Shown here: positions 1,093 through 11,358 of the stretch, in pieces
Layout: each line of letters starts with the position of its first letter
Numbering within the stretch: the first letter of the stretch is position 1
Position numbers and translations under genes: made by a program
NCBI GenBank assembly: GCA_003660555.1
Contig: QMUK01000024.1
Coordinates: forward strand, 1 to 15,709
DNA: 15,709 nucleotides
Reading direction: 5' to 3'
Source of the DNA: Thermococci archaeon
Lineage (GTDB): Archaea; Hadarchaeota; B88-G9
Notes under the pieces: generated by a model
What the model was told of the DNA's origin: nothing
The model's database searches: none
The model's input: only the letters and a program-made list of their open reading frames with translations

Positions 1093-2604
1093 CTACCTCC
1101 CCTTCTTCCATCTTCTAGTTACCATTATTATTGAGGCTATGGTTACCAGAATTATTACAGCTGCGGCAATCAGCACTGTTTTGGAATGCGATGCTTTACT
1201 CTCTTTGGGAAGGACATTCAGCTCAATACCACCCGTTCTGATTATTTCCTCACCTATCTTTATGAGGGCAGGCTGTAGTAGATATCTCCCGGGCTTATTG
1301 GCCTTGATCCTGTAAGAGTACTTCACCATACCGTTAGGAGGAACACTCATTTTGATCTCTATGGTTGTATTTCCAATAGCCAATTCCCTCGGTATCTTGT
1401 CCATTAACACAACATCCTCTTCTCTTAGTACATTGGAGTATACCTCTATGGTTACGTTTGTTTCATCACCTTCAATCAGTACAGGAGCTTCTATGGTTTT
1501 CAGGGCGTAAAACTCTCTGACTACCAATGGGGCCCTTTCTCCAGATGCATAAGCAAATATATTCAAGAGAAACTGATAAGCCCCCTCTAATCCTCTTACT
1601 AAAGCTGTGTTGAAGAAGTCAGAGTCGCATACTACTATTACCTCTCCCTTCCCCAGCGAAGAAGAGGCTAAACAAGGAAGACCCCTTTCTTCATTTTGAT
1701 CAGGCATTTCATTCCAATTAGAGTCCAGAAAGCTTTCATCACTGAAATAAGCCAAACCCATAGCATTCCCGCTTAACTTCATCCCTACAGGGTCTATTGC
1801 CCTCACTCCACGGATTCCTCTAGCTATTTCACTCTCTCCTTGCTTGAATATTATTGGTAAATGGGGACTTCCCTTGAGGTTATAGACTTTATCCAGCACG
1901 AGGGAGTCCACGAACTCTATTCCAGTACCTTTCAGTATTTCGTTGGCATCTTCAATAGTCTTGGTCCCCTCTTGAACGTATATTAGCTTTCCACCACCCT
2001 CAACGAACTCCCTTATTGCACTCACTTCTTCTCTCGAGAACTTAGTTCTCGGGCCCATTAGGACTAGAACATCATATCCTCTTAGAACATCCCTTGTTAT
2101 GTGAGGAACTTCTCCCAATCCATATCTAAGTTTGTATTCGTATGCTTGCATCCTTCTGCTCTTTATTTTTATGGTCCAATTTCCTCTTTCGAATTCGTGG
2201 AAATGTAGACCATTTCCCCAAGGATCAGTGAGTATTTCCTTTCTCGGTGACTCGACAGCTAACACAAACGGATACTTTTCCGTTGAGTTGCTCTCCAAGA
2301 TGAAGACTAGACACTCGCCACTTTCTGGAACCTCCACTTGGAACTCAGTCTCCCCTCCTGCCCCTAGAACACCCTCTACTACACCTAGTTCCCTCTTCAC
2401 GTCTACTTCCAATAGATCAACTTTCAATCCGAGAAAATTGAAAATGTCGTTCATTTCTGGAGTTGATTTAGGGCTGTAGCTCTCAGAATGAGTTAAATCA
2501 AATAGTATCCTTTTTGTTGATTTGCTCTCACTACCTTCAGTGAGTGGGTAGTTCGAGATTACTAAGAGAGAGATAATGAACAGCGACAGAGCACCATTCC
2601 TCAT
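1093..2604 (-). CDS. Secreted, C-terminally anchored protein with a GATase-1-like fold (DUF4350/GldG-like)
   Basis: This 503-residue protein has an N-terminal signal peptide (about 1-24), a large extracellular part, one membrane helix (about 476-496) and a basic cytoplasmic tail (RRWKKGR). The start of a GATase-like domain is seen at 32-66 (RILFDLTHSESYSP), then a beta-rich segment (about 85-160, resembling pre-peptidase-type beta sandwiches), and the GATase fold resumes at 170-355 (YDVLVLMGP, EFVEGGGKLIYV, GKGEVIVVCDSDFF). A second beta sandwich (about 365-470) precedes the membrane helix. I see no catalytic Cys-His-Glu triad, so a binding or scaffold role is more likely than amidotransfer. 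The ATG is preceded by GGAGGGG and lies 5 bases after the upstream stop, so translation is probably coupled. The 3' end overlaps the upstream in-frame codons of the PAC2 gene. Specific function is unknown. Confidence 0.72.
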   Translation of the reverse strand: MRNGALSLFIISLLVISNYPLTEGSESKSTKRILFDLTHSESYSPKSTPEMNDIFNFLGLKVDLLEVDVKRELGVVEGVLGAGGETEFQVEVPESGECLVFILESNSTEKYPFVLAVESPRKEILTDPWGNGLHFHEFERGNWTIKIKSRRMQAYEYKLRYGLGEVPHITRDVLRGYDVLVLMGPRTKFSREEVSAIREFVEGGGKLIYVQEGTKTIEDANEILKGTGIEFVDSLVLDKVYNLKGSPHLPIIFKQGESEIARGIRGVRAIDPVGMKLSGNAMGLAYFSDESFLDSNWNEMPDQNEERGLPCLASSSLGKGEVIVVCDSDFFNTALVRGLEGAYQFLLNIFAYASGERAPLVVREFYALKTIEAPVLIEGDETNVTIEVYSNVLREEDVVLMDKIPRELAIGNTTIEIKMSVPPNGMVKYSYRIKANKPGRYLLQPALIKIGEEIIRTGGIELNVLPKESKASHSKTVLIAAAVIILVTIASIIMVTRRWKKGR

Positions 2605-4044: not shown

Positions 4045-5264
4045 TCCCCAAACTCCTCGCCAATTCCCTCTAGGTTAAACATGATTGGAAGTAAATTTTT
4101 CCCTGATATTCTACCTATGCTCCCCGATGAACAGGAGATTTCATCGAACAACCTTGTTGAGTCCCTCCTAGCTGATTTGGAGTATATTGCTACTGGAACA
4201 GGGTCTCCTGTATGCTTCTTTACCTCTAGTGGAGTGGTGTGATCTGCCGTGACTGCGATAGTGAGCTCCTCAATTCCCTTCTCCTCTAAGATTCTACCCA
4301 AGAGCAAGTCTATCTTTTCAATCATGTTCACCTTTTCAAATACTTTTCCATCGTGGCTAGCCTCGTCTGTCCCTTTCACATTAACCAGAACGAAATCGTA
4401 CTTGTCCAAAGAGGAAATAGTAGCATCTGCCTTGGATAAAACATCGGTGTCCAATCCTCCAGTAGCCCCTTCGACCTCCACTACGTCTAGTCCTAGTAAT
4501 CTGGCTACTCCCTTAACGAGAGACATACCAGCTATGCAAGCTCCATTTACCCCAAATCTCTCCTTGAACTTCTGAACTTCTGGAAGAAAACTAGCTCCTC
4601 TAAGTAGAATGAAATTAGCAGGCGGTAGCCCCTTCCTTATTCTCTCTTTATTCACGGGATGTTCGCTTAAAGTTTCTTTGGCTATATTCAGGAATTCTCT
4701 CAGGATTTCTGCAGTTCTCTCCCCGTCTTCTCCTCTACCTTTGGGGATCAGAGGCTTTACTCCCACTCTCTTCGGATCAGTATCTGTAACTTCGTGACTG
4801 ATCTTCTTCCCCCTCAACACTAGAACACATCTATGAGCAAGAGCCTGTTTAAATTTTATCTTCACTCCACTTATTCTGATTCCATCAAGGCTTTTTGCTA
4901 GGATCTCCCCATCTTCTCTTATCCTGCCAGCTCTTCTATCTACTATAACGCCCTTTTCGTCCAGAGTACAGAAGTTGCATCTAAATGCAATGTCTCCCCT
5001 CTTGAGAGATATGCCAGAACCTAGCGCCTCTAGGACACCTCTCCCAGTATATATCTCGAACGGGTCATATCCAAGTAAAGCAATGTGTGCTGTATCGCTT
5101 CCCGGAGTTACTCCAGGAGATATTGGATCAATTATTCCATTTTCCCCAAGTTTGGAGATCAGGCACATGTTCCTGTTTCTGGAATACTGGAGAGGAGTTC
5201 TGTCTCCTAGTATACTGACTCTTCTGTCACTCATTCCATCCCCGACCAATACAACTATCGACAA
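4041..5264 (-). CDS. apgM: 2,3-bisphosphoglycerate-independent phosphoglycerate mutase, archaeal type
   Basis: This enzyme interconverts 3- and 2-phosphoglycerate in glycolysis/gluconeogenesis and belongs to the alkaline phosphatase superfamily with two metal ions. Counting from the start used here (407 residues, usual for archaeal ApgM), metal Asp9 lies in VGDGMSD, the nucleophile Ser56 in TPGSDTAHIALLGYDP, followed by YTGRGVLEALG, KGTDEASHDG (297-306), TADHTTP (339-345) and HTGDPVP (351-357). The frame remains open upstream to an ATG at 5351, but the added 29 residues have no family counterpart and would begin inside the oppositely oriented gene; TTG 5264, preceded by GGTGG, places the first beta strand (SIVVLVGDG) at the normal distance. 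It is the first gene of the five-gene minus-strand operon, and its stop overlaps the methyltransferase ATG. Confidence 0.92.
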   Translation of the reverse strand: MSIVVLVGDGMSDRRVSILGDRTPLQYSRNRNMCLISKLGENGIIDPISPGVTPGSDTAHIALLGYDPFEIYTGRGVLEALGSGISLKRGDIAFRCNFCTLDEKGVIVDRRAGRIREDGEILAKSLDGIRISGVKIKFKQALAHRCVLVLRGKKISHEVTDTDPKRVGVKPLIPKGRGEDGERTAEILREFLNIAKETLSEHPVNKERIRKGLPPANFILLRGASFLPEVQKFKERFGVNGACIAGMSLVKGVARLLGLDVVEVEGATGGLDTDVLSKADATISSLDKYDFVLVNVKGTDEASHDGKVFEKVNMIEKIDLLLGRILEEKGIEELTIAVTADHTTPLEVKKHTGDPVPVAIYSKSARRDSTRLFDEISCSSGSIGRISGKNLLPIMFNLEGIGEEFGE

Positions 5265-5340
5265 TTGACCACCAACTTTGACTTCATGGAAAGGGTTTTT
5301 ATCTCCCCTCAATCCCAATCCATTCGAAGGAGGTGTTACC
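5265..5340. promoter_or_regulatory. Divergent promoter between apgM and the CTG-start membrane protein gene
   Basis: The 76 bases between the two proposed starts hold an AT-rich core reading GGGTTTTTATC on the plus strand (5293-5303) and GATAAAAACCC on the minus strand, a TATA-like element usable in either direction. On the plus strand, initiation about 25 bases downstream would fall near 5325, just before the GGAGGTG ribosome site at 5329-5335. The TATA placement is read by eye; the transcription start is inferred. Confidence 0.5.
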
Positions 5341-6264
5341 CTGAGGACCATTCCACTAACTTTAATTTTACTTCTCTCTCTCCCATTAGTTGGGGGCCAA
5401 GGAGAGGAAGTGGGGGAGCTAAGAACAGTAACTAACCATTACTACATAGAGGAAGACGGAACTACAGTCACTTTCGTAAGAGAGGTGAGAGTTCTCCTTC
5501 CGGATCAGGCATCCAAAGAGGATTTTGAAAGGGAATTGGACAAGTTCAAAACTACTAGATCAGAAAGGGAATTGGAATGGAGAAAGGAGGCACTAAGAGA
5601 AATACAGGAGTATTCTAAGAGGACTGGGAGGAAAATGAGTCTGATATCATCGGAAATAGATATGTTCATAAGCGGAGATTACGGTTACTTAGTTTTCAGA
5701 GCAAAAATATCTAATTTTTGCTTAAAGGAGAAGTATAAGTATGTATTCGGAGATCAATTCCAAGGAGGAACGATAGTATCTGGAGTAACTATTAGAGTTA
5801 CCCTGCCACTGAAGGCCAAGGTCATAGAGGTCTCTCCTCCACCCAGTAACGTGAGAGGGAATGAAATAGAATGGCTTGGCCCACAAGTCTTCGGAGAAGA
5901 GGAACCTTACATAGAGTTCGTCGTACCACCAAAAGACCTTAGAGACAGGATAATAGACGTAGAAAATGCGATAAAAATTGTTAAGTCCAAAATAAGAAGA
6001 GGAGAAATAAGCAAGGGACAAATTAACTTAGATAAGTTAAGTGAAGCTGAGGAACACCTTGAAAGGGCTGTGGAATACATGGAGAAGGGGCTAATAGAGA
6101 AGGCAATGGCTGAGGTGAACTTGGCACAGAAGTCATATGAGGAATCTCTCGAGGGGTACAGACACGAGATTTACTACTCCTTGGCTGTGGCAATCGCTTT
6201 GATGTCCCTGCTAATGTTGTTCGTGAGAAAAAGGTTAAAGAAGGTTAAGAGACTTCAGGGATAA
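5341..6264 (+). CDS. Secreted, C-terminally anchored protein with beta domain and helical stalk; probable CTG start
   Basis: I do not recognise a named family; it recalls DUF4897-like archaeal surface proteins. From the start chosen, 307 residues: signal peptide (1-20, hydrophobic run LTLILLLSLPLV, cleavage near VGGQ), a beta-rich domain (about 27-195) interrupted by a charged helical segment (57-95), an amphipathic helical pair (200-272), one membrane helix (278-295) and a basic cytoplasmic tail (RKRLKKVKRLQG). There is no ATG, GTG or TTG near the signal peptide. The only standard start is TTG 5278, which adds 21 polar residues before the signal peptide and lies upstream of the predicted transcription start. 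CTG 5341 sits 5 bases after a perfect GGAGGTG (5329-5335), so CTG initiation is most likely. The layout resembles that of the membrane protein at 9284. The 3' end overlaps the Sec61-beta gene by 10 bases. Confidence 0.7.
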   Translation: MRTIPLTLILLLSLPLVGGQGEEVGELRTVTNHYYIEEDGTTVTFVREVRVLLPDQASKEDFERELDKFKTTRSERELEWRKEALREIQEYSKRTGRKMSLISSEIDMFISGDYGYLVFRAKISNFCLKEKYKYVFGDQFQGGTIVSGVTIRVTLPLKAKVIEVSPPPSNVRGNEIEWLGPQVFGEEEPYIEFVVPPKDLRDRIIDVENAIKIVKSKIRRGEISKGQINLDKLSEAEEHLERAVEYMEKGLIEKAMAEVNLAQKSYEESLEGYRHEIYYSLAVAIALMSLLMLFVRKRLKKVKRLQG

Positions 6265-6422
6265 TACATCCTAAGGAGCTGTATCACAATGGCGATCCCA
6301 ACGCTTATTCCAATTACTATCTCAGGCCTGACTCTCAGACCTTTTGTATCCTCATCGAAGTATCTTATTAGTCCAGCTCCTGTTGGAGGGAGTCTAGTTC
6401 TCTCTTTCTTTCCCTTCGGCAT
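6255..6422 (-). CDS. secG: Preprotein translocase subunit Sec61-beta (SecG)
   Basis: A 55-residue protein with the standard archaeal Sec61-beta layout: a short basic cytoplasmic N terminus (MPKGKKERTRLPPTGAGLIR), the conserved stretch YFDEDTKGLRVRPEIVI, and a single C-terminal membrane helix (about 33-50) ending in RMYYP. It is the small accessory subunit of the SecYE protein-conducting channel in the cytoplasmic membrane. The ATG is preceded by GGTGAGGGG (minus strand, 6436-6428). Its stop lies inside the convergent membrane protein gene, with a 10-base tail-to-tail overlap. Length and motif match the family, so I regard the call as firm although the gene is very short. Two genes for Sec-exported anchored proteins lie nearby. 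Confidence 0.93.
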   Translation of the reverse strand: MPKGKKERTRLPPTGAGLIRYFDEDTKGLRVRPEIVIGISVGIAIVIQLLRMYYP

Positions 6423-6487
6423 TTCTTCCCCTCACCTAGGATTACATTAGATGAATACTTAAGCATTTCCATCTCAGAGGTGGTCCC
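6423..6487. promoter_or_regulatory. Divergent promoter region of secG and the MazG-like gene
   Basis: This 65-base head-to-head spacer contains an AT-rich core ATTACATTAGATGAATACTT (6441-6460) and a palindromic CTTAAG (6458-6463). ATTACATTA could serve as the TATA element for the plus-strand gene, placing initiation near 6470 before the GAGGTGG ribosome site (6477-6483). The minus-strand element is probably the GCTTAAGTAT sequence. Exact start points cannot be fixed by eye. Confidence 0.4.
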
Positions 6488-6778
6488 ATGAGGATTAAAG
6501 AGGCCCAGAGGATGATGAAAGAGTTATATTATGAGAGAGATAAGAGAAGAGGGATAGAAAGAACATTCATGTGGATGGTGGAAGAGGTAGGAGAACTATC
6601 GGAGGCTATAATGTCCGGAGACGAGGAGAAAATATCTGAAGAGTTTGCGGATCTAATAGCATGGATGTTCTCACTAGCTAATGTCCTTCAGGTAGATGTA
6701 GAAGAAGTTTTCTTATCCAAATATGATTGGAAATGTCCTAAGTGCAGAGAAAATCCATGTGTATGTCCAGAAGGATGA
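6488..6778 (+). CDS. MazG-type nucleotide pyrophosphohydrolase with C-terminal zinc motif
   Basis: A 96-residue all-alpha NTP pyrophosphatase of the MazG superfamily, expected to hydrolyse non-canonical or excess nucleoside triphosphates to monophosphate and pyrophosphate with Mg2+. The metal-binding pattern is present: WMVEEVGELSEA (29-40; Glu32, Glu33, Glu36) and EEFADLIAWM (51-60; Glu52 and Asp55). The C terminus carries a four-cysteine motif CPKCRENPCVC (83-93), likely a structural zinc site that is common in small archaeal MazG proteins. The ATG is preceded by GAGGTGG with 4 bases spacing. The gene stands alone: a T-rich stretch and the tubulin operon promoter follow. House-cleaning of the nucleotide pool is family knowledge; the precise substrate is unknown. 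Confidence 0.87.
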   Translation: MRIKEAQRMMKELYYERDKRRGIERTFMWMVEEVGELSEAIMSGDEEKISEEFADLIAWMFSLANVLQVDVEEVFLSKYDWKCPKCRENPCVCPEG

Positions 6779-6928
6779 TTGGCGCTTATGCAAGGAGATA
6801 TCGGCATCATCAAGTCTAATCATCAAATTGCTCTTCAAGAATGTCTTATACTTTTTCCTATTCTGTAAAAACGTTTATATAGAAAAGGAACCTAACAACC
6901 CTAGACCCAAGTTAGGGGGTGTTGAGGT
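6779..6928 (+). promoter_or_regulatory. Promoter and leader of the tubulin-like operon
   Basis: This gene-free stretch holds a T-rich run (ACTTTTTCCTATTCTG, 6850-6865) that may terminate the MazG gene, then an A-rich BRE-like block and a strong TATA box GTTTATATA (6873-6881). Transcription would begin about 6902-6907. A perfect 6-base inverted repeat, CCTAAC (6891-6896) and GTTAGG (6911-6916), spans the expected start and overlaps the GGGGGT ribosome site (6915-6920). The TATA box is the clearest in the window. Confidence 0.65.
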
Positions 6929-8071
6929 TTGAAGATGTTGGCAGTAGGTCTAGGTCAGGCCGGGACTAAGATTGCCGACCTCTTCATAGGTTGGGAGATG
7001 AAGCAACCTGTGAAGTGCTTCAATGCTATAGCAGTGAACACAGCCAAATCAGATTTAATGGGACTGAAGAATATACCGATGGAAAACAGAGTCCTAATAG
7101 GAGAGACCGCAGTTAAAGGACACGGAGTTGGAGCTAACAACAAACTAGGGGCAGAGATAGCTATGGAGGAAATAGACGTGATATTGGGGGCCATAGACAG
7201 AATGACCAAGAGTGACTTAGACGCCTTCCTACTCATAGCAGCTGGAGGAGGAGGCACAGGCAGTGGGGCCATACCTGTAGTGGCCAGACACCTAAAGGAG
7301 CTTTACGACGAACCTGTGTACGCACTGTTCATACTACCAGCAGAAGCAGAGGGAGACATCTATACCCTGAATGCTGCGAGGAGTCTAAAGACACTGATAG
7401 GAGAGGTGGATGGTACTTTCTTGGTGGACAACGGCGCATTCCTGAGATACGGAGAATCAGTCAAGGAGGCATACGACAGAATAAATGCAGAAATAGTAAG
7501 GAGAATAGGACTATTGGCAAGAGCAGGAGAGGCCACTTCCCATGCTAAGGTTGGAGAAGTAGTAGTAGATGCCTCCGAGGTGCTGAATACCATAGGAAGA
7601 GGGGGAATAACATCGGTGGGATACGCTCAGGAAGCAATAGAGAAGAGAGCCAGAGGTAAACACACTTTCCTAGACGATCTAGGAAAAGCCACTAGGGTAA
7701 TAAGCATAGTTAAGAGGGCAGTAAGAGGTAAACTCACTCTCCCGTGCGATTACACCACTGCAGAAAGAGCTCTTGTGCTATTTGCTGGACCACCTGTGTA
7801 TATGACTAGGAAGGGTCTAGATAAGGCTAGACAATGGCTAGAGGGAGAAATAGCTGGGAGTGAGGTAAGAGCAGGAGATTACCCCAACCCTAAGGCAGAC
7901 TTCTTGGCTGCAGTAGTAGCTCTTTCTGGAGTTACTGAATCTCAAAGACTAAAGGAGCTCTTCGAGAGAGCAGCTAGAGCTCAAGAGAGAATAAAGGAGG
8001 TAGCTGAAGAAGGAAGAAGAAGGTTTGAAGAACTGTTCGAGGAGGCAGAAGACATAGAGCCATTGTTCTAG
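6929..8071 (+). CDS. FtsZ/tubulin-superfamily GTPase, non-canonical (CetZ-like or FtsZ-like-1), first of a tandem pair
   Basis: A 380-residue cytoskeletal GTPase of the tubulin/FtsZ superfamily, not a standard division FtsZ. Visible: T1 loop VGLGQAGTK (6-14), NTAKSDL (37-43), GHGVGANNKLG (64-74), the tubulin signature AAGGGGTGSGA (104-114), LPAEAEGDIYTLNAARS (136-152), VDNGAF (166-171), T7-like loop LPCDYTTAERAL (271-282), AGPP (286-289) and LSGVTESQ (332-339). After a charged helix (340-370) the protein ends in DIEPLF. Family T7 loops carry a second acid that takes part in GTP hydrolysis across the filament interface; Thr277 appears to stand in its place. TTG 6929 is chosen because it aligns with the neighbour's first residue and follows GGGGGT; ATG 6935 is possible. 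Co-transcribed with the paralogue 49 bases downstream. A filament role in shape or membrane remodelling is inference. Confidence 0.85.
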   Translation: MKMLAVGLGQAGTKIADLFIGWEMKQPVKCFNAIAVNTAKSDLMGLKNIPMENRVLIGETAVKGHGVGANNKLGAEIAMEEIDVILGAIDRMTKSDLDAFLLIAAGGGGTGSGAIPVVARHLKELYDEPVYALFILPAEAEGDIYTLNAARSLKTLIGEVDGTFLVDNGAFLRYGESVKEAYDRINAEIVRRIGLLARAGEATSHAKVGEVVVDASEVLNTIGRGGITSVGYAQEAIEKRARGKHTFLDDLGKATRVISIVKRAVRGKLTLPCDYTTAERALVLFAGPPVYMTRKGLDKARQWLEGEIAGSEVRAGDYPNPKADFLAAVVALSGVTESQRLKELFERAARAQERIKEVAEEGRRRFEELFEEAEDIEPLF

Positions 8072-8120
8072 GGAGACACATCCCCTCCTCCTTTGCTTCC
8101 CTATTTCCCGGGGGTATCCC

Positions 8121-9272
8121 ATGCAAATACTTGCCATAGGGGTAGGCGGTGCTGGCATAAGAATGCTCGATTTCCTGCTACACAGACCAGAAGAGGGAGT
8201 CCTAGAAAAATTCAAGGAAACCTTTGGAACGAGGAAATACTTTGATTACAAGGACAGTTTGACTCCTTTGGCTGTAGATACATCGAGACCCCATTTAGAA
8301 AACCTCAAGTCAATAGAGGAAAAGGACAAAATTCTAATAGGGAAATACGATGCCAAAGGCCACGGAACTGGCTCAGACATTTCTTTGGGAGAAAGGATAG
8401 CTGAGAAGGAGATAGACAGAATAGAAACGAAACTACAAGATGTGGCAGGTCAAGTTGACTTCTGCCTGATAATGCATTCATTAGGCGGAGGTACAGGGGG
8501 AGGAGCAACTCCAGTAATATCTGAAGTGGCTAGAAGAGTACTGGAGGTCCCAGTGTATACTGTTTCGATTCTACCGTCTCTGGAGGAGAGCAACATCTAC
8601 ATACTAAACGCAGTCGACGCAATGAAGAGTGTACTCGGGAAGGTGGATGGGGTGATACTAGTAGATAACGGGGTAGTAACGGAGAAAATAGTGAAGATAC
8701 CTATATATGAGCAGGTCAATCTATATGTCTCCAGGTTCGTGAGAACACTAGTCAGAGCTAGCGTGGAATCAGGGATAATAGGTTCTAGTTCAGTTATAGG
8801 AACTATGAGCCCATTCGATGGAGTTAGCACAATAGGAAATGTTTCATCTGGAATAAACAAACTTGGAAAAGGGAAGAAGTGGATATCCTTTCTAATGAAC
8901 AAAGTAATAAAGGGAAAAGGTGGCCTAGGCCTACTCCTCAATTGCGACTACAAGACTGCTCAGAGAGCCCTACTCCTAATAGTTGGTCCACCGGAAAAAG
9001 TAGCTGATACCTTCCACGATGCCAGAGAGTGGCTTCAGAATCAAATCCCCGGGATAGCCGTCAGAGGAGGGGAATATCACGTTCCCAATTCCACTCAAGT
9101 AGAGATAGGGGTGCTCCTATCTGGATTGACGGAGGTAACGGCAATAAAGGAGTTATATAAAAGAGCCAAGGAGATAACAGAAGTAATAAGGGAGAAAAAG
9201 GAGGAACTTAAGGTCAGAAAGGAGGAATTTATTAAATTATTTGAGGAAAGTGATATAGAACCCTTGTTTTAG
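8121..9272 (+). CDS. FtsZ/tubulin-superfamily GTPase, non-canonical, second of the tandem pair
   Basis: A 383-residue paralogue of the preceding gene, strongly diverged but with the same order of motifs: IGVGGAGIR (6-14), AVDTSRPHL (51-59), KGHGTGSDISLGERIA (79-94), signature SLGGGTGGGAT (120-130), LPSLEESNIYILNAVDA (151-167), VDNGV (181-185), T7-like loop LNCDYKTAQRAL (273-284), VGPP (288-291), LSGLTEVT (333-340). The T2 region is longer than in the partner and the nucleotide signature differs (GGGTGGG versus GGGGTGSG), so the two are not recent duplicates. Thr279 occupies the position of the expected second T7 acid. The C-terminal charged helix and final DIEPLF are shared with the partner. 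ATG 8121 follows GGGGGT with 5 bases spacing; no promoter is visible in the 48-base C/T-rich spacer. Pairing into a heterofilament is a hypothesis. Confidence 0.83.
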   Translation: MQILAIGVGGAGIRMLDFLLHRPEEGVLEKFKETFGTRKYFDYKDSLTPLAVDTSRPHLENLKSIEEKDKILIGKYDAKGHGTGSDISLGERIAEKEIDRIETKLQDVAGQVDFCLIMHSLGGGTGGGATPVISEVARRVLEVPVYTVSILPSLEESNIYILNAVDAMKSVLGKVDGVILVDNGVVTEKIVKIPIYEQVNLYVSRFVRTLVRASVESGIIGSSSVIGTMSPFDGVSTIGNVSSGINKLGKGKKWISFLMNKVIKGKGGLGLLLNCDYKTAQRALLLIVGPPEKVADTFHDAREWLQNQIPGIAVRGGEYHVPNSTQVEIGVLLSGLTEVTAIKELYKRAKEITEVIREKKEELKVRKEEFIKLFEESDIEPLF

Positions 9273-9283
9273 GAGGTGTGTGA

Positions 9284-10192
9284 GTGATGAAGAGACTATT
9301 TGCTGTATTGGGTCTCGTCCTAATGTTGCTGCCCGCAATCGGAATTTCCCAGCAAACGGACTTCCTGAGGGTTTCTGATGTGGAGAGACCACCAGGATCG
9401 GCTGAGCCAGAGAAACTGATAATAACAGAGGTGACTCTGGAGCCCAATAAGGGAGTGATAATTCCAACAGTAGCTACAGTGATATTCACCACGGACCTAG
9501 AGAAGACTCAATGGGAGGTCACAGTGGAACCTGAAAATGCAGCTAAGAGTATAACTGGAGCAGAGGCAGGAAGCAAAGAGCTTAGAATTTCTATAAACAC
9601 TTTCCTTATAAGGAGAATAACAGTTAGGCTTCAGGGAACCACTCCAGAGGTAACTGCCATGCAGAAGATAACTGGGATAAAAGTGGTGACTAAGGCCACT
9701 TATCCAGGTATAGGAACGAAGGACGAACTTGAACTCGATGCTCCAATAATGGTTGGTAGAGGAGAATGCGTTAGAGCTCAAGGTGAGATAGAATCTGCTA
9801 AAGGGGTAATAGAAGAGGCAAAAGATGCGATAAGCAAAGCTGATAGTGTATTAGCCGAGGCAATGGCCAAGGGAGTCTCTACGACTATATACTCAGGTAG
9901 GGTAGATGAAGCCAAGAGGGCAGTGGAGAGGGCAGAGGAACAAGTGAGGAGCGCAGAAGAATTAGTCAACAAGGGTGAGTGTACTACTGCAATGAGCACT
10001 GCTTCAGCTGCTAGAGACACAGCAGATGAGGCTAAATCCAAGGCAGAAGAAGTGACCAACATGCTTAGGCAAGAGATAATGGCGAAGCAGAAGGCTAGGA
10101 GAAACATGATGATAGCTGCGATAGTCGTAATAGTAGTGGTCATAGCGGTGGTGGTCTACTTCAAGACGAGAGGTATGGTGGAGCCCTGGTGA
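9284..10192 (+). CDS. Secreted, C-terminally anchored protein of the tubulin-like operon
   Basis: No recognised family. The 302 residues read as a signal peptide (1-22, RLFAVLGLVLMLLPAIG), an extracellular beta-rich domain (about 45-155), an Ala/Glu-rich helical stalk (163-270), one membrane helix (275-293) and a nine-residue cytoplasmic tail KTRGMVEPW. The stalk has three or four coiled-coil-like helices; Cys162 (GEC) precedes the first and Cys233 (GEC) the third, and these are the only cysteines, so a stapling disulfide is plausible. AGGAGGTG at 9271-9278 overlaps the stop of the upstream GTPase gene; start is GTG 9284 or ATG 9287. Twelve-base spacing makes operon membership nearly certain, suggesting it links the cytoplasmic GTPases to the membrane or cell surface. 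That role is inferred from context only. Confidence 0.72.
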   Translation: MMKRLFAVLGLVLMLLPAIGISQQTDFLRVSDVERPPGSAEPEKLIITEVTLEPNKGVIIPTVATVIFTTDLEKTQWEVTVEPENAAKSITGAEAGSKELRISINTFLIRRITVRLQGTTPEVTAMQKITGIKVVTKATYPGIGTKDELELDAPIMVGRGECVRAQGEIESAKGVIEEAKDAISKADSVLAEAMAKGVSTTIYSGRVDEAKRAVERAEEQVRSAEELVNKGECTTAMSTASAARDTADEAKSKAEEVTNMLRQEIMAKQKARRNMMIAAIVVIVVVIAVVVYFKTRGMVEPW

Positions 10193-10206
10193 AGTCCTCT
10201 CCCCCG

Positions 10207-10231
10207 TCTATTTTTCTCTAATTTCTATTTT
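10207..10231 (+). terminator. T-rich terminator after the tubulin-like operon
   Basis: Three T-tracts (TTTTT, ATTTCT, ATTTT) follow within 40 bases of the membrane-protein stop, with no hairpin. Archaeal transcription commonly ends at such oligo-T runs. The tract sits right before the amidohydrolase ribosome site, so it could equally be part of that gene's promoter. Confidence 0.4.
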
Positions 10232-10242
10232 CGGTGAATATT

Positions 10243-11358
10243 TTGCTGATATATAATGTGGAAATCCTGAATAGAGACTTTGAATTCGTCAGAGGGTCGC
10301 TTGAGATAGACGAAGAAGGATACATTTCTGGAATAACCGATTCAAGGAGAGGAGATCTAAATGGAAAAGGAAGCCTCTTGATACCTAGCTTTACCAACGC
10401 GCACGTTCACCTAGGAGACACAATAACTAGAGACATCTGGATTGGTAGATCTATAAGAGAATTGTTTAGACCTCCTAACGGTCTAAAACACAGGATATTA
10501 AAAGAAAAAAGTGATGAGGAGAAGATATTAGCGATTAAAACAGCTCTCAGAGAATTAATGTCATCTGGAATAGGGGCAGTATGTGACTTCCGAGAGGAAG
10601 GCAGAAACGGAGTTTTATTGTTTAGAAGAGCCATTTCTGAGTTTCCAATAGACTCAGTAGTATTAGGCAGACCCGATGGGGACTACTCCTTCTTGGAAGT
10701 AAGCGATGGGGTGGGAATAAGTAGTCCTATGGATGTAGGCCTAGATGAGTACTCCAGACTGGTAAAAGAAGCTAAGAAAAGAGGGAAAATGGCAGCAGTA
10801 CACGTTGGGGAAGATCCCTTTAACCAATTGATGGCCCTCAGCCAATACGGGGAGACAGAGGTGGAGTTAGCTCTCAAAGAGAATGTGGATTTCCTGGTAC
10901 ACTTGAACTATGCTACAGAAGGCGACATAGACTTGATTTTAAGGAGGAGAGTACCGGTAGTCTTCTGCCCAAGGGCCAATTTATCCATGGGGTTGCCTCC
11001 ACCACCCATAGACGAACTAATAGATAGAAATTTGATTGCTATTGGGACAGACAATTCAATGGTCACCTCACTAAACATCTTCCGTGAAATGGATTTCATC
11101 ATGAGACATTACAGACTAGAGCCTAAGGCAGTCCTGAAAATGGTCTATTCTGGGAGGGAGTTGCTTGGGTTGGAACCTAACTACATTGAGGAGGGGAACA
11201 GGGCGTCACTTTTATTAATGAGAATCGGGGAAAACCTGAGGTATTGTGAGGACAAGTTCTCGGCCTTGGTTGGAAGGGCCGGAGTAGAGAACGTATCCCA
11301 TCTAATAGTGGGGACTAGAGTCCTTTCCCTAGGAGGTGATCTCAATAAAAGTAGGTGA
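10243..11358 (+). CDS. Amidohydrolase-superfamily protein, deaminase-like (COG0402 type)
   Basis: A 371-residue metal-dependent hydrolase of the cytosine/adenosine deaminase-like branch. In sequence order: short N-terminal beta sandwich strands, metal motif NAHVHLGD (His54, His56), HVGE (His187 with catalytic Glu190, the HxxE pattern of deaminases), VHLNYAT (His220), FCPRANLSMG (241-250) and GTDNSM (Asp270). No carbamylated lysine is expected, which fits a single-metal deaminase rather than a urease-type enzyme. Substrate is unknown; archaeal relatives act on deoxyadenosine, methylthioadenosine or related purines. GTG 10234 overlaps the GGTGA ribosome site, so TTG 10243, five bases after GGTGA (10233-10237), is the better start. 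The 3' end contains the ribosome site of the CBS gene and overlaps it. Confidence 0.82.
   Translation: MLIYNVEILNRDFEFVRGSLEIDEEGYISGITDSRRGDLNGKGSLLIPSFTNAHVHLGDTITRDIWIGRSIRELFRPPNGLKHRILKEKSDEEKILAIKTALRELMSSGIGAVCDFREEGRNGVLLFRRAISEFPIDSVVLGRPDGDYSFLEVSDGVGISSPMDVGLDEYSRLVKEAKKRGKMAAVHVGEDPFNQLMALSQYGETEVELALKENVDFLVHLNYATEGDIDLILRRRVPVVFCPRANLSMGLPPPPIDELIDRNLIAIGTDNSMVTSLNIFREMDFIMRHYRLEPKAVLKMVYSGRELLGLEPNYIEEGNRASLLLMRIGENLRYCEDKFSALVGRAGVENVSHLIVGTRVLSLGGDLNKSR

Follow-up and report, generated by a model that had tools for sequence, protein, structure and literature searches.

What could two tubulin-superfamily GTPases and an exported membrane protein do together in one archaeal operon? 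This question is raised by three consecutive genes on contig QMUK01000024.1 of a hadarchaeal genome assembly (GCA_003660555.1, Thermococci archaeon), which was analysed as a window of 15,709 nucleotides (nt). Gene 1 (6929-8071, 380 amino acids), gene 2 (8121-9272, 383 amino acids) and gene 3 (9284-10192, 302 amino acids) all lie on the plus strand, as do their features given below, and the three open reading frames are present as a preliminary description made from the sequence alone had listed them. We propose that the products of the operon form a CetZ cytoskeleton linked to the membrane, with gene 1 as the hydrolysing subunit, gene 3 as its membrane partner and gene 2 as a co-subunit or modulator, an account that we consider fairly probable. 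Its basis consists of the gene identities, a conserved gene order, co-occurrence, the conservation of a C-terminal tail and a change in the T7 loop of gene 2, while physical binding of the gene 3 family (termed M below) to CetZ, the topology of M in the cell, copolymerisation and a role in cell shape are what we infer.

Both GTPases are of the CetZ type. Gene 1 matches the Pfam models CetZ_C (E value 7.7e-60, 201.9 bits vs a cut-off of 21.6) and Tubulin (9.9e-28, 98.1 bits vs 33), its best solved structure is Haloferax volcanii CetZ1 (PDB 4b46, E value 4e-111, aligned end to end), and in the tree it lies within the core CetZ clade together with haloarchaeal CetZ. Gene 2, which is 37% identical to gene 1, matches Tubulin (8.8e-32) and CetZ_C (7.2e-17, 61.9 bits, above the cut-off), and its AlphaFold model, built from relatives of the locus, reaches a predicted local distance difference test (pLDDT) score of 85.6, with CetZ1 and CetZ2 as top PDB matches in Foldseek and a template modelling (TM) score of 0.88 by target against CetZ1. 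In the tree, gene 2 lies outside the core clade but still within the family, whose boundary is taken, as in PMC9856176, from Thermococcales CetZ. An FtsZ identity was rejected for either gene, the TIGR00065 equivalog scoring 71 and 85 bits and thus far under its cut-off of 295. We therefore classify gene 1 as a core CetZ and gene 2, on the basis of both its sequence and its predicted fold, as a divergent CetZ; the earlier designation as non-canonical FtsZ/tubulin homologues is correct at the level of the superfamily and narrows to CetZ for both proteins. Compared with CetZ1 and CetZ2 of H. volcanii (4b46, 4b45), gene 1 is alike in T4, T7 and the C-terminal motif, whereas gene 2 is alike in its predicted fold but lacks the T7 acids. 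Another contig of the same genome (C13, L031:4865-7430) carries a further pair of CetZ genes that are divergently oriented, one encoding a close paralogue of gene 1 with an intact T7 loop and the other a very divergent protein with an altered T4 loop (GLGGSFGGG).

Gene 3 indeed carries the signal peptide and the C-terminal membrane anchor that had been read from its sequence, namely a signal-like helix at residues 5-23 and a transmembrane helix at residues 275-293. Its AlphaFold model (pLDDT 81) consists of the signal helix, a beta-sandwich and three long helices, the last of which crosses the membrane. According to this model, the beta-sandwich ectodomain spans residues 28-151 (9365-9736), a helical stalk (residues 165-195, 204-229 and 233-274) runs into the transmembrane helix (9776-10162). 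The last nine residues, KTRGMVEPW (10163-10189), are the predicted cytosolic tail. Proteins with a signal peptide, a beta-sandwich, a helical stalk and a single C-terminal transmembrane helix are here named family M; they are 261-412 amino acids long, and gene 3 possesses every element of this layout. Gene 3 scores 227 bits against the M hidden Markov model, in which its own sequence is included, and aligns in hhalign with the M proteins of Hydrothermarchaeota (E value 2e-10) and Methanomicrobiales (4e-12); the coiled-coil content could inflate these profile scores, but the alignment also covers the beta-domain.

No Pfam or NCBIfam model matches family M above its cut-off, and a sequence search of the PDB returned only coiled-coil look-alikes. 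Likewise, no named fold could be assigned to the ectodomain, for which Foldseek gave many weak beta-sandwich matches (TM score by query ≤ 0.26), none of them specific. An archaeosortase substrate was dismissed, since no PGF-type motif precedes the transmembrane helix in the listed C-termini inspected by eye and no NCBIfam sorting signal matched, and so was a SepF-like anchor, with no SepF match in the Pfam and NCBIfam scans. SepF and the FtsZ anchors of the ZipA/FtsA type resemble M in the proposed role of a membrane partner that tethers tubulin-superfamily filaments, but M differs from them in being an exported type I protein with a beta-sandwich ectodomain and a C-terminal cytosolic tail. 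The FtsZL1 system of Makarova and Koonin (2010) reportedly also connects a tubulin-superfamily protein with membrane components; the operon in the window differs from it in having no VWA, second GTPase or OmpA genes, and genes 1 and 2 match CetZ_C. The host genome additionally encodes, on contig C4 (L203:4615-6117), a 500-residue M paralogue that combines two M-like beta-domains with a C-terminal transmembrane helix and whose gene has no CetZ gene beside it.

That an exported, anchored protein is linked to the tubulin homologues, as the preliminary description had suggested from the window, turned out to apply far beyond this lineage. M genes lie directly downstream of single CetZ genes in Methanomicrobiales, ANME-1, Alkanophagales, Archaeoglobi, Methanocellales and Halobacteria. 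In a set of 80 named CetZ loci and others, all fetched via CetZ, 47 of the 58 same-strand downstream neighbours of CetZ combine a signal peptide with a C-terminal transmembrane helix, compared with 8 of 611 other genes of the same loci. The M genes of the fetched loci directly follow CetZ in 58 of 58 cases, at a distance of −32 to +16 nt, and 20 of these 58 pairs show a 4-nt overlap, which is typical of translational coupling. Since the loci were fetched via CetZ, a reverse search starting from M matters: M found a match in 83 of 119 Halobacteriota genomes, and a CetZ gene is located directly upstream in 29 of the 30 best M loci, the remaining one stopping at a contig edge. Among the 40 genomes seen by both searches, M (E value ≤ 1e-6) is present in 20 of the 25 with a core CetZ and in 2 of the 15 without. 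We regard a functional linkage between M and CetZ as strongly supported.

The linkage includes cetZ1 of Haloferax-like archaea. Using the H. volcanii CetZ1 sequence from the structure match as a query against 99 genomes of one haloarchaeal family, we found cetZ1 in 95 of them. The 25 best matches, whose products are 88-99% identical to H. volcanii CetZ1, all have M downstream (25/25), and more divergent genera may differ in this respect. Six of the 25 loci, with 96-99% identity, are judged by their sequences to be probably from Haloferax, H. volcanii itself not being confirmed among them. The haloarchaeal gene order is epimerase, cetZ1, M and a cofC-like gene, the position and start of the latter (VPF...KTRL) suggesting cofC. 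This order matches the cetZ1 locus described by Brown and Duggin (PMC9856176), which has nolA on its upstream side and cof genes in the vicinity. No membrane partner is mentioned in their text, according to which non-haloarchaeal CetZ loci outside Thermococcales share few similarities; the grey uncharacterised genes in their figures may include M. In Halolamina, Halorubrum-like and some other loci, the cofC-like gene directly follows cetZ1 and M is absent.

The CetZ family itself is already known, and CetZ controls cell shape in archaea. A 2024 study (PMC10927574) speaks of no more than a "loose association" of CetZ with the envelope, and no membrane partner of CetZ is named in the open-access literature that was searched. 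Descriptions of M as a partner, of its tail and of an A-B-M(-C) operon (see below) were likewise not found there, preprints and subscription journals lying outside the search, so that M is apparently undescribed and priority is uncertain. With a conserved membrane gene next to CetZ, also next to cetZ1 in species closely related to H. volcanii, the question of a partner would become testable in a genetically tractable archaeon.

If M is such a partner, the part most likely to contact CetZ is its tail. Behind the transmembrane helix, M proteins carry about 6-17 basic residues followed by a short end, and this tail is more conserved than the ectodomain. Among 126 distinct M proteins, 106 have L and then G, K or R as their last two residues, the commonest ends being WDELG (47), YDKLG (21) and REELG (7). 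In the fetched loci, the terminal pattern [WYF][DEN]xL[GKR] was seen in 41 of the proteins encoded directly after CetZ and in no others, and the M protein of Archaeoglobaceae, which is unlinked from the CetZ locus (L183, L184, L185), retains the tail (RRKWDELK, with WDELK or FDELK ends). In the proposed mechanism, gene 1 would act as the GTP-hydrolysing CetZ subunit and gene 3 as its dedicated type I partner, with the beta-sandwich and the stalk outside the cell and one helix in the membrane. The short basic tail would dock on CetZ filaments and thereby tie them, at the inner face of the membrane, to the envelope, the ectodomain and stalk reaching the surface layer (S-layer). We thus consider M a strong candidate for what connects the CetZ cytoskeleton to the envelope, a link missing so far.

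Several observations weigh against this reading. Gene 3 itself is an outlier, since its end RGMVEPW lacks the L-G/K/R motif of the family, ten of the 126 distinct M proteins have RGIY-like ends (the ANME-1-like lineages end in RGIY), and a tail of 6-17 residues is short. Core CetZ occurs without M in Halolamina, Halorubrum and the genomes G091, G097, G103 and G063, and M is therefore not indispensable. The C-terminal motif of CetZ, DIEPLF in genes 1 and 2, was considered as being kept because of M; this idea is weakened by the M-less Halolamina and Halorubrum, whose CetZ retains the motif, and the CetZ C-terminus is therefore not conserved solely for M. Many of the loci come from related Methanomicrobiales, so that the counts are not independent. 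As for gene 2, some of its Hydrothermarchaeota counterparts (CetZ-B, see below) retain an acid at one T7 position, and a loss of catalysis is therefore not general for B.

M could also be cargo instead of an anchor, which means that CetZ filaments would position M as a surface protein with the role of a sensor or organiser of the S-layer and would reach the membrane by other means. The large, variable ectodomain of these 261-412-residue proteins, the tiny tail and the persistence of CetZ without M in several lineages are in agreement with such a role, which we nevertheless consider unlikely. The tail outconserves the ectodomain, as expected for a constant contact between tail and filament, but this does not separate the two directions.

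Returning to the membrane-linked cytoskeleton, the role of gene 2 depends on its nucleotide-binding and catalytic loops. The two glycine signatures differ as initially described, GGGGTGSG in gene 1 (7244-7267) and GGGTGGG in gene 2 (8484-8504), and the T4 loop looks functional, with GTP binding predicted to be kept, in both. The largest difference between the two proteins, exceeding that in T4, is in the T7 loop. Gene 1 has the CetZ consensus VVVDASEVLNT with both canonical acids (7559-7591), the second of which aligns with E218 of H. volcanii CetZ1, which we take to be the catalytic residue. In gene 2 the loop reads GIIGSSSVIGT (8772-8804), and both acids are replaced (D to G, E to S). The C-terminal motif DIEPLF is identical in gene 1 (8051-8068) and gene 2 (9252-9269) and close to that of most core CetZs. 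Gene 2 may therefore be pictured as a subunit that binds GTP but lacks the T7 acids that would act on the GTP of the neighbouring subunit, so that its T7 loop would not promote hydrolysis there; most likely it would co-assemble with, cap or tune gene 1 filaments. Like alpha/beta-tubulin, BtubA/B and the Asgard AtubA/B, genes 1 and 2 form a pair of paralogues of which one departs from the catalytic T7; they differ from these in that both belong to the CetZ family, that gene 2 alters both acids and that the heterodimer is putative. A tandem CetZ with an altered T7 could also serve as an archaeal model for the origin of paired tubulin subunits with unequal GTPase roles. The reverse of the situation in gene 2 was seen in Archaeoglobi (L061:6834, L037:7222), where CetZ-like proteins have lost the T4 glycine loop and kept a T7-like loop; the one in L061 directly precedes CetZ and M.

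The same combination of genes is found in Hydrothermarchaeota, where the order is CetZ-A, CetZ-B, M and CetZ-C. The M gene is present in 17 of 23 genomes of this group, with B directly upstream in 17 of 17, and in nine further loci B precedes M in all nine, A preceding B and C following M wherever the contig reaches (in one of the nine, L233, only a 95-residue piece at the contig edge lies ahead of B). The order A-B-M-C spans families of Hydrothermarchaeota. T7 is canonical in every CetZ-A, its consensus is lost in all B proteins, and it is changed in C. The conserved three-gene order that the preliminary description had proposed to look for thus exists, the membrane protein being a conserved neighbour and the two GTPases co-occurring in other genomes. 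In the open-access papers searched, no description of tandem CetZ genes with M was found for CetZ.

In a densely sampled tree, gene 2 groups with the B clade of Hydrothermarchaeota (support 97/87) and not with gene 1. An orthology of gene 2 with CetZ-C was not rejected in the first tree (p 0.43), whereas the dense tree prefers B. We consider the placement of this CetZ-B-like sequence in the B clade likely but not certain, because its branch is long. Gene 2 could instead have arisen by a recent duplication of gene 1 and have no role of its own, only gene 1 and gene 3 representing the ancestral unit. In pairwise comparisons the highest identities of gene 2 (36-37%) are those with core CetZs, gene 1 among them, the Halobacteriota loci that were read have CetZ and M without B, and approximately unbiased tests do not reject a grouping of gene 2 with gene 1 alone (p 0.054) or with gene 1 and its paralogue C13a (p 0.19). 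The B grouping in the dense tree, together with a place in the gene order and a class of T7 change that gene 2 has in common with B, makes such a duplication improbable in our view. The initial proposal of a conserved pair with separate roles and a linked envelope protein is thus supported, although the tests do not formally reject a lineage-specific duplication.

A further extension, which we regard as doubtful, would make M a general archaeal CetZ anchor acting via a C-terminal [W/Y]DxLG, and the filament of the window's lineage and of Hydrothermarchaeota a heteropolymer of catalytic and T7-degenerate subunits, an independent counterpart of alpha/beta-tubulin.

M might also signal the state of the envelope to CetZ and regulate CetZ assembly as a sensor that bears no load. 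A single-pass topology with an ectodomain and a short tail, as well as the varying presence of M among haloarchaea, would suit such a sensor; the translational coupling indicated in 20 of 58 loci is more in keeping with a structural partner that is synthesised together with CetZ, and we judge a purely regulatory role to be quite improbable. A chance co-transcription without any functional link, for which the tight operon spacing common in small archaeal genomes could be cited, is effectively refuted by the conserved order, the adjacency being kept across at least eight lineages while other neighbours change.

The layout of the locus is consistent with a single transcript. The gaps measure 49 nt between genes 1 and 2 and 11 nt between genes 2 and 3, and a TATA-like box (6874-6881) lies ahead of gene 1, with no second such match in the scanned range of 5200 to 10300. 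The tight spacing and the shared promoter of the preliminary description are thus retained, the word "strong" corresponding to a consensus match only. Gene 1 may start at ATG 6935, because TTG 6929 abuts GAGGT, and ATG 9287 is a possible start of gene 3; a T-rich stretch 3' of gene 3 (10209-10231), noted by eye, is a possible terminator. The host genome comprises 1.3 Mb at 91% completeness and is the sole member of its family in the genome set searched. A contamination of the contig was considered and rejected: the glycyl-tRNA synthetase encoded in the window is most identical (56-64% over the shared 340 amino acids) to those of genomes of the same phylum, and the contig therefore fits its bin.

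Other genes of similar architecture were observed in the window and elsewhere. Upstream of the operon, 5278-6264 (plus strand) encodes a coiled-coil protein with DUF4897/DUF7345, a signal peptide and a C-terminal transmembrane helix, which resembles gene 3 in layout and does not match the M profile, and 1093-2604 (minus strand) encodes a 503-residue exported protein with a C-terminal anchor and a GldG / IFT52-GIFT-like domain. In a hydrothermarchaeon (L036:3683-7712), two long FtsZ-like genes flank a coiled-coil protein with two transmembrane helices, with 4-nt overlaps, and another archaeon (L043:4556-10105) has a tandem array of five divergent FtsZ-like genes, close to which an exported coiled-coil protein with a C-terminal anchor is encoded.

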